From the NCBI RefSeq assembly GCF_002699985.1, contig NZ_LKBT01000067.1, positions 124,001-188,000 of the forward strand: a stretch of DNA of 64,000 nucleotides, in the 5' to 3' direction. Shown one piece after another: positions 17,531-20,800 of this stretch. The position numbers were made by a program, and so were the translations under genes. The DNA is from Pseudomonas sp. ICMP 561 (GTDB lineage: Bacteria; Pseudomonadota; Gammaproteobacteria; Pseudomonadales; Pseudomonadaceae). Below the pieces are notes generated by a model. It was not told the origin of the DNA. It made no database searches and saw only the letters and a list, made by a program, of their open reading frames with translations. Within the stretch, counting starts at the first letter, position 1. Every line of letters starts with the position of its first letter.

Positions 17531-19429
17531 TCAGATCGCGCCGCGACTGCGCAGCAGGTCCAGCACTTGCTTGACGCTGTCTTCGAGACTCAGGGTTTGA
17601 GTATCGATGACCAGATCCGCATTGAGCGGTACGTCGTACGGGAAGGACTCGCCCGGGATGTTATCGCCCTCGGCTGCGTACAGGCCCTGTGGATCGCGTT
17701 CGCGGCAAACCGCAGGGGATGCCTGGACGTATACGGTCAGCAGGCGATCAGCACCGATCAGAGACTTGGCCTGCTCGCGACCTTCGCCGTCAGGCGCAAC
17801 GAACGCAGCCAGGGTAATCAGCCCCGCCTGGTTGAACTGACGCGCAACGTGAGCGGCACGACGCCAGTTCTCGGTACGCCCGGCGCGATCCTGTGGCAGA
17901 CCTTTGTTCAGGTCGTGACGCAGGTTCTGGCCATCCAGCACGTAAACCGCGCGTCCCATGTCGAACAGCTTGCGCTCGACCGCATAAGCCAAGGTGCTTT
18001 TGCCAGCGCCCGACAGGCCGCTGAACAGCACAGTGGCTGGCTGCTGACCAAAACGCTGAGCTCGCTCTTCAGTCGCAACGTGAGCCAGAGCGCCGTGATG
18101 ATTGGCACCTGCGCCGCCAACGGGCTTGGCGATGATCATGCCCGCGGCCACTGTGCCATTGGTCAAACGGTCAATTACGATGAACGAACCCGTGGTGCGG
18201 TTGCTGTCGTAACCGTCCAGCGCGATGGCCGAGTCTAGGCTGATCTTGACGCGACCAATCTCATTCAGGCCCAGCGAACTGGCAGGCCCTTCGGCCAAGG
18301 TATTCACATCGACACGATGGGTGATGCTGGCAATCGAGCCCGGCACATAGCTGGTGGCACGCTTGATGTCGTATTTCTTGCCCGGCAGCATCGGCTCTTC
18401 AGCCATCCATACCAGCATGGCATCGAATGCATCAGCCACTTGCGGAACGTTATCGGCGTGTACCAGCAAGTCACCACGGGAGATATCAATCTCGTCTTCC
18501 ATGGTCAGAGTGACGGCCTGACCCGGCCCGGCACTCTCCAGCTCACCTTCAAAGGTGACGATGGATTTGACACGACTGCTCTTGCCCGACGGAAGCACGA
18601 CGACTTCGTCACCCTTGTGCACGATACCGCTCGCCAGCGTACCGGCGAAACCACGGAAGTTCAGGTTTGGACGGTTGACGTACTGCACCGGGAAACGCAT
18701 GTCGGTGTAATTGCGGTCGTTGGCAATCTCGACGGTTTCGAGGATCTCCATCAAGGACTGGCCGGTGTACCAGGGCGAACGCTCGCTCTTGTTCACCACG
18801 TTGTCGCCCTTGAGAGCCGACATCGGCACGAAGGCCATGGTGGTCGGTTTGAACGCGATGCCGTCGGCGAACTTCAAGTAGTCGGACTTGATCGACTCGA
18901 AGACGCTTTCGTCGAAGCCATTGAGGTCCATCTTGTTGATGGCTACAACGATATGTTTGATGCCCAGCAGCGATGCGATGTAGCTGTGACGGCGGGTCTG
19001 GGTCTGTACGCCGTAACGGGCATCCACCAGGATGATCGCCAGGTCGCAGGTCGATGCACCGGTTGCCATGTTGCGTGTGTACTGCTCATGGCCCGGAGTA
19101 TCGGCAATGATGAACTTGCGCTTGGCGGTGGAGAAATAACGGTAAGCAACATCAATCGTGATGCCCTGCTCCCGCTCGGCCTGAAGGCCGTCAACCAGCA
19201 ACGCCAGATCGACGTCTTCGCCGGTGGTGCCGGACTTCTTCGAATCGCGGGTAATGGCTTCAAGATGATCTTCGTAGATCATCTTGGAGTCGTGCAGCAG
19301 ACGCCCGATCAGCGTGCTCTTGCCGTCGTCGACGTTGCCACAGGTAAGAAAGCGCAGCATTTCCTTGCGTTCGTGCTGGCCCAGATAGGCGAGGATGTCC
19401 TCGCTGATCAAATCAGATGCGTGACTCAT
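17531..19429 (-). CDS. cysNC: Bifunctional ATP sulfurylase GTPase subunit / APS kinase (CysN-CysC fusion)
   Basis: A 632-residue fusion. The N-terminal EF-Tu-like GTPase (GNVDDGKS 31-38, then DTPGHEQ and NKMD) powers sulfate adenylylation with CysD; the C-terminal APS kinase (P-loop GLSGAGKST near residue 470) makes PAPS for assimilatory sulfate reduction. ATG at 19429 gives the family start [11 protein letters not shown], with GGAG about 10 nt upstream; the 19459 reading adds ten unrelated residues translated from a flanking repeat. A four-helix-bundle gene separates it from cysD. Confidence 0.95.
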
Positions 19430-19442
19430 TTCATTCGAGCTC

Positions 19443-19880
19443 CAAGCTGTAAGCTTCAAGCGGCAAGCTTGTCGGCGTACAGCTAGTCAGAAATTTTATT
19501 GATCAGCCCGCAAAGCATTTTTGAAAGCTCACGGGTTTCGATAATCCAGGCTGCTGCAAGTGGTTCAGCGATATAACCAATTTCACCGCCGATGATGAGC
19601 TGAGTTCTTAGCTCGCCACAGGATGCTTTAGCAATCGATAGAAAGCGGCATTTGTCCTTCGCAGTGAAACGCTCCATACCTTCCGCAATATTGCTCGGCA
19701 CCGACAGCCCAGAGCGCGTGATCTGACTCCTGAAAGCCAAATCGGGACAGGAAGCCATCTCCTTGTAAAGATTGACTGCCAAAGCCTTGGCTCTTTGCCA
19801 AACCAAGAGTTTCTCGAAATCCATTTCGATCACCTGCTTTTGATTCACTTGCAGCTTGCCACTTGAGGCTTGTAGCTGCT
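19443..19880. mobile_element. Inverted-repeat-bounded insert carrying a four-helix-bundle gene
   Basis: The segment between the cysNC ribosome-binding site and the cysD stop begins and ends with imperfect inverted repeats of about 25-27 bp. The left end carries AAGCTTCAAGCGGCAAGCTT (near 19450-19470). The right end, read in reverse, carries AAGCCTCAAGTGGCAAGCTG, with about 21 of 27 positions agreeing. It holds one short ORF and no transposase. Element borders are inferred and no target-site duplication was established. Confidence 0.55.
19483..19824 (-). CDS. Four-helix-bundle protein, S23 / 23S rRNA intervening-sequence family
   Basis: A 113-residue all-helical protein of the S23 family, first known from ORFs inside 23S rRNA intervening sequences and related in fold to the Avd accessory protein of diversity-generating retroelements. 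Family hallmarks are the start [18 protein letters not shown] (3-20), SVPSNIAEG (41-49) and [10 protein letters not shown] (67-76). ATG at 19824 has AGGTG about 6 nt upstream. It lies between cysD and cysNC, normally adjacent genes, and is flanked by inverted repeats. GC is about 52% over 19501-19800 (hand count), lower than cysNC. Function unknown; probably basic and RNA- or DNA-binding. Confidence 0.85.
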
Positions 19881-19882
19881 CT

Positions 19883-20800
19883 TTAGAAATAACCCTGACG
19901 TTTCTTTTCTTCCATCGAACCAGCGCCATCGTGATCAATGACCCGGCCTTGACGTTCGGAAGTACGCGTCAGAAGCATTTCCTGAATGATGTCAGTGAGG
20001 CTGGTGGCCTCGGACTCGACTGCGCCCGTCAACGGGTAGTCGCCAAGTGTACGGAAGCGGACTTTCTTCTTGACGATGCGAGCCTTGTCTTCATCGCTGA
20101 GATGATTCAGAAGACGCTCGTCGTCGATCATGATCCAGGTGCCGTTCATCTCGATGACATCGCGCTCGGCGGCGAAGTACAACGGGACAATCGGGATGCC
20201 TTCCAGATAGATGTACTGCCAGATGTCCAGCTCGGTCCAGTTGGACAGCGGGAACACGCGAATCGACTCGCCTTTGTTGACGTTGCCGTTATAGACGTTC
20301 CACAGCTCCGGGCGCTGGTTCTTCGGATCCCAGCGGTGCTTGCTGTCGCGGAACGAGTACACGCGCTCTTTGGCACGGGATTTCTCTTCATCACGACGCG
20401 CGCCACCGAACGCGGCATCGAAGCCGTGCTTGTCCAGGGCCTGCTTGAGACCTTCGGTCTTCATGATGTCAGTGTGCTTGGAGCTGCCGTGGGTGAGCGG
20501 GCTGATGTTTTGAGCCACGCCGTCCGGGTTGATGTGGACGATCAGGTCCAGGCCCATTTCCTTAACCATCTGGTCGCGAAAACGGTACATTTCCTGGAAT
20601 TTCCAGCGGGTGTCCACATGCATCACCGGGAATGGCAGCTTGCCCGGAAAGAACGCCTTGCGCGCAAGGTGCAGCATTACGGCAGAGTCTTTACCGACGG
20701 AGTACAGCATCACCGGGTTATCAAACTCGGCGGCGACCTCGCGGATGATGTGGATGCTTTCCGCCTCCAGTTGCTTAAGATGCGTCAGTTTATCGACCAT
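19883..20800 (-). CDS. cysD: Sulfate adenylyltransferase small subunit
   Basis: A 305-residue ATP sulfurylase catalytic subunit of the PAPS-reductase/adenine-nucleotide-hydrolase type, making adenosine 5'-phosphosulfate from ATP and sulfate in complex with CysN. The PP-loop motif [19 protein letters not shown] (about 33-51) and the C-terminal [20 protein letters not shown] are characteristic. It heads the cysD-cysNC operon; the next gene downstream is the inserted four-helix-bundle ORF. Confidence 0.96.

Follow-up and report, generated by a model that had tools for sequence, protein, structure and literature searches.

The genes cysD and cysNC of Pseudomonas sp. ICMP 561 are separated by an insert of 453 nt, whereas most of the empty relatives that were read have a spacer of only 9 nt. 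This raises the question of what kind of element the insert is and how the gene that it carries is related to its repeated ends. The following features were found at this locus in the window, i.e. the whole stretch of 64,000 nucleotides that was analysed.

19883..20800, minus strand: cysD, sulfate adenylyltransferase small subunit, 305 aa; upstream neighbour of the insert
19430..19882, minus strand: whole insert, from the cysD stop to the cysNC start
19848..19882, minus strand: 5' heptad array directly after the cysD stop, AGAGCAG followed by the four units CTACAAG CCTCAAG TGGCAAG CTGCAAG (19848-19875); recognised by pattern and period tests
19830-19835: AGGTGA, possible ribosome-binding site of the S23 gene
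19483..19824, minus strand: S23 (23S_rRNA_IVP) gene, 113 aa, four-helix bundle according to profile matches and a structure model
19440..19467, plus strand: 3' heptad array CTCCAAG CTGTAAG CTTCAAG CGGCAAG, inverted with respect to the 5' array
19440-19443, minus strand: GGAG from the outer end of the 3' array, likely ribosome-binding site of cysNC
17531..19429, minus strand: cysNC, bifunctional sulfate adenylyltransferase subunit 1 / APS kinase; downstream neighbour of the insert

Anatomy and distribution of the cys insert

The insert begins and ends with arrays of degenerate 7-nt units (NNNCAAG) that are inverted with respect to each other. With at most one mismatch, AAGCTNNAAGCNNCAAG has three matches in the 64-kb window, all of them at the insert; 0.10 matches are expected, and none of 100 shuffles reached three. 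The first-pass annotation had described imperfect inverted repeats at both ends. The repeats do exist; more precisely, they are 7-nt units arranged in inverted arrays. A search for repeats in the window did not list the arms of the insert as an inverted pair and gave only an unrelated pair of 15 nt. The notion of one exact inverted pair was therefore rejected; the arrays are degenerate and were detected by pattern and period. The 29-nt 3' arm was likewise rejected as the repeat itself: with up to three mismatches it matches its own genome once, at the cys locus, and only the degenerate heptad is dispersed. In all 46 filled Pseudomonas loci, lag 7 was the best of lags 2-12 at the insert ends.

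The complete 113-residue S23-family ORF, which had been noticed between cysD and cysNC and in the same direction as both, was confirmed by profile scans. The ORF, scanned with its longer open frame (19483-19938), matches PF05635 '23S_rRNA_IVP' with an E-value of 1.5e-28 (99.6 bits, cut-off 33.8) and TIGR02436 with 100.2 bits (cut-off 24); NF008912 is also above its cut-off. Among the Pfam families, no nuclease, polymerase or transposase match was obtained, PF01797 (Y1/HUH) included, and no defence or phage family was assigned by PADLOC or PHROGs. The predicted model (pLDDT 96.2) consists of four helices and resembles the solved members 2gsc (TM about 0.9) and 2rld (TM 0.80-0.84). The solved S23 relatives contain five chains each. 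The Avd subunit of diversity-generating retroelements is a pentamer. The S23 model is predicted to share the Avd fold, with TM values of about 0.78 for 4dwl and about 0.8 for 8ube, a ribonucleoprotein of such a retroelement, at weak E-values of 0.01 to 0.05; the title of entry 8ube describes the Avd complex as a ribonucleoprotein with reverse transcriptase. The two proteins differ in that their identity is about 16% and in that numbers of reverse transcriptase genes are unlinked to S23 presence in 58 genomes. For the Xanthomonas S23 protein, PMC4990558 gives a toroidal homopentamer.

The median dN/dS of S23 is 0.08 over 119 Pseudomonas pairs that are at least 80% identical at the nucleotide level, which indicates strong purifying selection on the protein. 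The ORF is intact at 112-113 aa in 38 of the 46 Pseudomonas genomes that have it; frameshifts, a stop and deletions occur among the remaining ones. In the 31 of 46 loci with one leader type and an intact ORF, the flanking arrays are 93-95% identical, as compared to 74% for the ORF and 53% for third codon positions. The arrays therefore appear to be under constraint or subject to conversion. An identical S23 protein is found in Pseudomonas folii DOAB 1069, among the best 80 of 374 relatives.

A TIGR02436 match is present in 46 of 398 Pseudomonas genomes, that of ICMP 561 included, and absent from 352. In all 46, S23 lies between cysD and cysNC. The junction was read in 175 genomes, of which 46 are filled, 123 are empty and six contain a remnant, i.e. 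repeat ends without a recognisable S23 gene; the empty sites that the first-pass annotation had proposed to look for in relatives do exist. The commonest empty junction, TAA-GGGG(T/C)TGTC-ATG (91 of 123 empty genomes), comprises 9 nt, or 12 nt with the cysD stop (TAAGGGGYTGTC), and reads TAAGGGGTTGTC or TAAGGGGCTGTC. The insert replaces this short spacer, and no target-site duplication was visible when filled and empty cys junctions were compared by eye. With the insert in place, the cysNC start lies about 440-500 nt behind cysD (354 nt in one deleted copy) instead of 12 nt.

On a core tree built from cysD and part of cysNC, i.e. from the locus under study, the filled state requires 31 parsimony changes over the 175 genomes, compared to a mean of 40.7 and a minimum of 34 in 300 label shuffles. 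In some pairs the insert is more similar than the core genes (98% versus 92% for G094 and G313, 96% versus 89% for G356 and G317), which points to exchange between lineages. The site itself is shared beyond the genus. Among the best 80 of 374 relatives, which are the loci nearest to Pseudomonas S23, 76 are flanked by both CysD and CysNC matches, and the order cysD-S23-cysN(C) also occurs in Stutzerimonas, Halopseudomonas, Oceanimonas, Oceanisphaera, Halomonas, Salinicola and others. The insert had been interpreted as an element resembling an rRNA intervening sequence (IVS) that has entered an mRNA. Its anatomy agrees with this, as is detailed below, but it is not a stray insertion, given that the same junction is occupied in all S23-positive Pseudomonas genomes and in other genera.

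Heptad arrays at S23 genes across Pseudomonadota

A search of 299 Pseudomonadota genomes identified 50 with S23, 48 of them outside Pseudomonas. From 80 matched places, two of which belong to Pseudomonas, 50 loci from 42 non-Pseudomonas genomes were taken; 20 of these were chosen mostly to add further genera and paralogues, and six S23-positive genomes in which the match was weak or only partial (G549, G445, G437, G508, G551, G667) were left out of the set. When lags 2-12 were compared in the 400-nt flanks, lag 7 scored highest in 44 of the 50 loci. The corresponding numbers for the controls were 6/50 and 6/50 for two sets of more distant stretches of the same loci, which were not restricted to intergenic DNA, and 3/50 for order-1 Markov copies. 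A lag-7 score of at least 0.6 was reached by 39 of the S23 flanks versus 3, 6 and 0 of 50 controls. Each of the 20 genera contains at least one locus with a period-7 frame, and in 16 genera this holds for all loci. The non-conforming loci show a period of 8 (three loci), 6 (best in two) or 9 (one). Arrays occur on both flanks of 29 loci, in inverted orientation in 24 and in direct orientation in five. The combination of repeat and S23 ORF, for which a genome search had been suggested, is thus not confined to the cys insert.

A separate collection of named loci gave the same result, with lag 7 being the best in 24 of 24; it comprises L316 and L319 from Pseudomonas and 22 loci titled outside this genus, which are all such loci among the best 80 of 374. 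Matches to known RNA families at gathering threshold were rare: none in 20 loci, one in a further 20 (SRP RNA) and one in 14 sources (the 23S rRNA of L392). In L318, from Deltaproteobacteria bacterium IMCC39146, a long tandem array of AAAACTG/AAAATTG heptads lies just before S23 between cysD and cysN.

The unit varies widely between lineages (TAGGCAG, GTGAGTA, CGAATGG, GGATGAG, TTGAAAG and others), and this variation follows the S23 protein. For the 43 of 49 loci that passed the period-7 threshold (L364, in which no S23 domain was detected, was left out), the distance between units falls with S23 identity; the Spearman coefficient is -0.31, and none of 1000 permutations was as strong. Exactly the same unit is found in eight of ten pairs with at least 85% S23 identity. 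Paralogues within one genome, on the other hand, have units that differ at three of seven positions in all five comparisons, which is the average of unrelated loci. In the S23 tree, which comprises 45 of the 50 loci, the three loci with an 8-nt period (L375, L378 and L368 from G448, G467 and G588) form one clade (support 0.80) beside loci with the heptamer TAGGCAG. The 8-nt unit of L375 and L378, TAGGGCAG, corresponds to TAGGCAG plus one G and is present in both arrays, one of the two being degenerate; that of L368 is TAGGGGAA. G448 and G467 carry both the 7-nt and the 8-nt type. The tracking of S23 by the unit, the unlike units of paralogues and the 8-mer clade are not accounted for by a genome-wide mutational bias, but are accounted for by concerted evolution within an S23-containing element.

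The second unit, AGGCANTAGGCANTAGGCA, was followed across the 299 genomes. It matches in 11 of them, and ten of these belong to the 50 S23-positive ones (p 7e-8 if genomes are regarded as independent; the matches are confined to four genera, with seven genomes in one). In seven of the ten, the unit or TAGGCAA is present at an S23 flank that was read; in G588, G591 and G684, which have 1, 1 and 2 matches, the unit is absent from the S23 flanks read. Several genomes also contain it away from any S23 place. TAGGCAG arrays are present in G681 as well, in which S23 was not matched. The reversed AGGCANTAGGCANTAGGCA that served as a control matched 23 times in G581 and five times in G606, both of which are S23-positive, and once in G602; these may be further heptad families.

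One of the 50 loci, and only this one, lies in an rRNA gene. In L392 (G613:C1:1862251-1865571), S23 is located inside a 23S rRNA gene (RF02541) and is preceded by a heptad array and followed by an inverted one. The same genome possesses S23 at L371 and L383, where no rRNA match was found. The 23S rRNA IVSs with an S23p ORF of Coxiella and Leptospira resemble the cys insert in having this ORF, terminal inverted repeats that can form a long stem, and a short length (428 nt for the Coxiella IVS; PMC4990558). According to the same paper, tandem heptamers GACAGAT lie upstream of S23p in Coxiella, and the ORF is decayed in some strains, as it is in some copies of the cys insert. There are also differences: The cys insert is located in a protein-coding operon and its heptad is dispersed through the genome, and while the S23p of Coxiella is described as probably not made (PMC4990558), the cys S23 has evolved under strong purifying selection. 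The earlier IVS reading of the insert is thus supported with respect to anatomy, both by L392 and by the Coxiella heptamers, but not with respect to location. By its anatomy, S23 together with the inverted heptad arrays makes up one element of the IVS type.

Scattered heptads in Pseudomonas genomes

In the genome of ICMP 561, AAGCTNNAAGCNNNAAGC has 35 matches at 20 places, one of which is the cys locus, and the reversed pattern has none; here and below, the counts include overlapping matches within one array. The scattered arrays look intergenic by eye, and several consist of two facing arms. Among the 19 places other than cys, 17 were tested for folding, and 13 of these form a better hairpin than shuffles (z < -2), whereas four do not. 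Since the genome has a single S23 match, the scattered arrays are devoid of the gene.

The abundance of the pattern follows the presence of S23. The median is 48 matches in the 46 S23-positive Pseudomonas genomes versus 3 in the 352 S23-negative ones, and at least five matches are found in all 46 of the former versus 147 of the latter. The Mann-Whitney test, with four matches subtracted per S23-positive genome and relatedness ignored, gave p 4e-21. Relatedness was taken into account by means of 29 edge-disjoint pairs of filled and empty genomes, again with four matches subtracted for the cys locus. The filled genome has the higher count in 21 pairs and the lower one in eight (sign test p 0.024, Wilcoxon p 0.0005). 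Because 42 of the 123 empty genomes had been fetched for their richness in repeats and 14 of the 29 pairs include one of these, this comparison is biased against an association; in the 15 pairs whose empty partner was not picked in this way, the filled genome is higher in 14.

The correlation is not strict. Among 46 repeat-rich S23-negative genomes, 42 have a clean empty cys site, with up to 221 matches (G347), and four have remnants; the repeats may thus persist after S23 has been lost, or may originate elsewhere. G347, G002, G009 and G024 have no TIGR02436 match, a clean empty cys site and 108 to 221 matches of the AAGC heptad. Within the S23-positive genomes, the count is seven in G317 and 370 in G356, although their S23 proteins are nearly identical. 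The first-pass annotation had considered that the ends might be unrelated copies of a common genomic repeat. The repeat is indeed dispersed, but its copies are not unrelated, as their abundance follows S23 presence and their sequence follows the S23 protein.

Two further candidate partners were considered in the same 29 pairs (58 genomes). The number of RAYT genes does not differ between S23-positive and S23-negative genomes (p 0.81), and RAYT was consequently rejected as the driver in Pseudomonas. The same holds for reverse transcriptase genes (p 0.95); 12 of the 29 S23-positive genomes have no RVT_1 match, and a dedicated reverse transcriptase is not supported, although PF00078 would miss very divergent ones.

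Individual arrays differ in their stability. At 20.8 kb of contig C10 of the ICMP 561 genome, in a place that appears to be intergenic, a heptad array is present in this genome (G000) and in G094, whereas G155, G115 and G050 contain other DNA after the same left flank, which we read as REP-like. This demonstrates turnover at the site, but not an act of transposition. The array at 4.8 kb of the same contig lies in an alignment that is continuous, with few gaps, in six of seven relatives; not every array is therefore variable. Away from heptad arrays, two stretches of ~95 nt in L218 (8347-8442 and 14124-14215) have many dispersed matches in related Pseudomonas.

S23 as a candidate partner of bacterial heptamers

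The explanation that we prefer, with a probability of about 0.55, is an element of the IVS kind in which S23 is framed by arrays of its own unit, binds the cognate hairpins and favours their spread, the scattered hairpins being its offspring. Judged by sequence, the heptad frame is present at most sampled S23 genes across Pseudomonadota, unit and protein co-diverge, and one such element is a 23S rRNA IVS; scattered heptad copies are generally abundant in S23-positive Pseudomonas genomes. We infer that S23 most likely binds the heptads and promotes their spread, although the association as such gives no direction of cause. In the model that demands least, the S23 ring would bind the hairpin as RNA or as single-stranded DNA, and bound S23 would favour the copying, homogenising and persistence of hairpins via host polymerases or repair. 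RAYT proteins are thought to promote the copying of REPINs, and by analogy the role of S23 might be somewhat similar, without a catalytic domain of its own. The scattered hairpins would be non-autonomous and decay after loss of S23. The copy between cysD and cysNC would move between strains mainly by homologous exchange at the locus and be lost by deletion, leaving remnants. Its outer arm supplies the likely ribosome-binding site of cysNC. No transposition was observed, and the single S23 site in Pseudomonas is unlike an active transposon.

The likeness to REPIN-RAYT systems consists in one gene place per S23-positive Pseudomonas genome that is framed by the repeat, and in many scattered inverted-repeat hairpins elsewhere in the genome. 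Moreover, the type of repeat goes with the adjoining protein, as described for REPINs in PMC3116915 and as found here for S23 units. In contrast to RAYT, S23 is a four-helix bundle without a match to a catalytic domain and not a Y1/HUH transposase; its repeat is an array of 7-nt units and not a REP, and RAYT numbers do not follow S23.

The mechanism that had originally been proposed for the insert, in which its end arms fold and RNase III cuts the stem, leading either to excision of the insert or to two separate messages, appears doubtful as an alternative. The rRNA IVSs are excised by RNase III according to PMC4990558. In the cys inserts, the two ends pair more strongly than shuffled ones at 45 of the 46 filled Pseudomonas loci (arm duplex z < -2), the minimum-energy fold pairs them in 37, and a GGAG is found no more than 22 nt ahead of the cysNC start in 44. 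However, excision of an S23 insert cannot be the function of the scattered arrays, which lack S23. Processing of the cys transcript by RNase III and the preferred explanation do not exclude each other. Given the longer distance to the cysNC start, the nearby GGAG and the pairing ends, an effect on cysNC translation is plausible with or without RNase III.

The ring of TRAP reads spaced triplets. By analogy, S23 might be a heptad-binding RNA regulator whose regulon is represented by the scattered hairpins and whose own arrays serve autoregulation, with no mobility involved. Several observations would suit such a regulator: the strong purifying selection on protein and arrays, the intergenic appearance of the scattered arrays and the folding of 13 of 17, the five chains of the solved relatives together with the Xanthomonas homopentamer (PMC4990558), and the co-divergence of unit and protein. 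The frequent change of the S23 state (31 changes in 175 genomes) and the broken and remnant copies, however, suit a dispensable element better, and inverted arrays on both sides also surround the S23 gene inside the rRNA gene of L392. We thus regard a purely regulatory role as unlikely.

A function of S23 in sulfate activation would account for its place between cysD and cysNC. It agrees with the 76 of 80 nearest loci flanked by CysD and CysNC, and outside Pseudomonas three of the 50 loci lie between cysD and cysN and two more near an APS-kinase match. Nevertheless, it is highly improbable: within about 1.5 kb of the remaining 45, neither CysD nor CysNC is matched, and 352 of 398 Pseudomonas genomes lack an S23 match. 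The simplest reading of the favoured cys site is common descent of the S23 clade together with the site. Least probable of all is that the heptads arise by polymerase slippage, as has been proposed for heptamers (PMC4679880, PMC4692102), which are widespread in bacteria (PMC6344855), and that S23 genes simply end up in such DNA or tolerate it, because slippage predicts neither the tracking of S23 clades nor unlike units of paralogues in one genome, an 8-mer clade or mostly inverted arrays.

The preferred explanation, S23 as a binder and promoter of its own heptads, touches on a second group of repeats. Bacterial heptamers have been described in Xanthomonas (GGGAATC), Beggiatoaceae (TAACTGA) and Nostoc (PMC4692102, PMC4679880, PMC6344855). 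According to these papers, the repeats resemble the S23 arrays in their 7-nt period, largely intergenic location, sometimes inverted arrangement and taxon-specific units, and the accessible parts name no partner protein. The term S23 is absent from PMC4692102 and PMC4679880, and 'four helix' from both and from PMC6344855. Published papers retrieved with AAGCTGCAAGC include none on bacterial repeats, as judged by title. In the open-access literature, a link between S23 and heptamers was found only in the Coxiella IVS paper (PMC4990558), whose accessible part mentions the heptamers upstream of S23p and makes no generalisation.

In these seven-base repeats, which have lacked an explanation, S23 provides a candidate for the partner protein. 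Location, inverted arrangement, co-divergence and copy number connect two old puzzles, S23 with the rRNA IVSs and the bacterial heptamers, across lineages with different units. A single protein, its RNA or DNA ligand and the deletion of one gene would therefore suffice to test both. The element also suggests an origin of rRNA intervening sequences. As a tentative generalisation, to which we give somewhat less than an even chance, S23 proteins may be the missing trans-acting partners of heptamers, which among the periodic repeats of bacterial intergenic DNA are the most common; each subunit of the ring would read one unit of 7 nt, rarely 8 nt, and thereby drive copying and concerted evolution of the inverted arrays, and the rRNA IVS would be a special case. 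If this generalisation holds, such elements would form a class of repeats that depend on a protein but have no catalytic domain of their own, which has not been described so far in searchable, i.e. open-access, papers.

A separate observation concerns L380 of G676, in which S23 is framed by heptads of the GGGATTC type. They are close to the GGGAATC repeat reported for Xanthomonas campestris, from which the solved S23 protein 2gsc was obtained.
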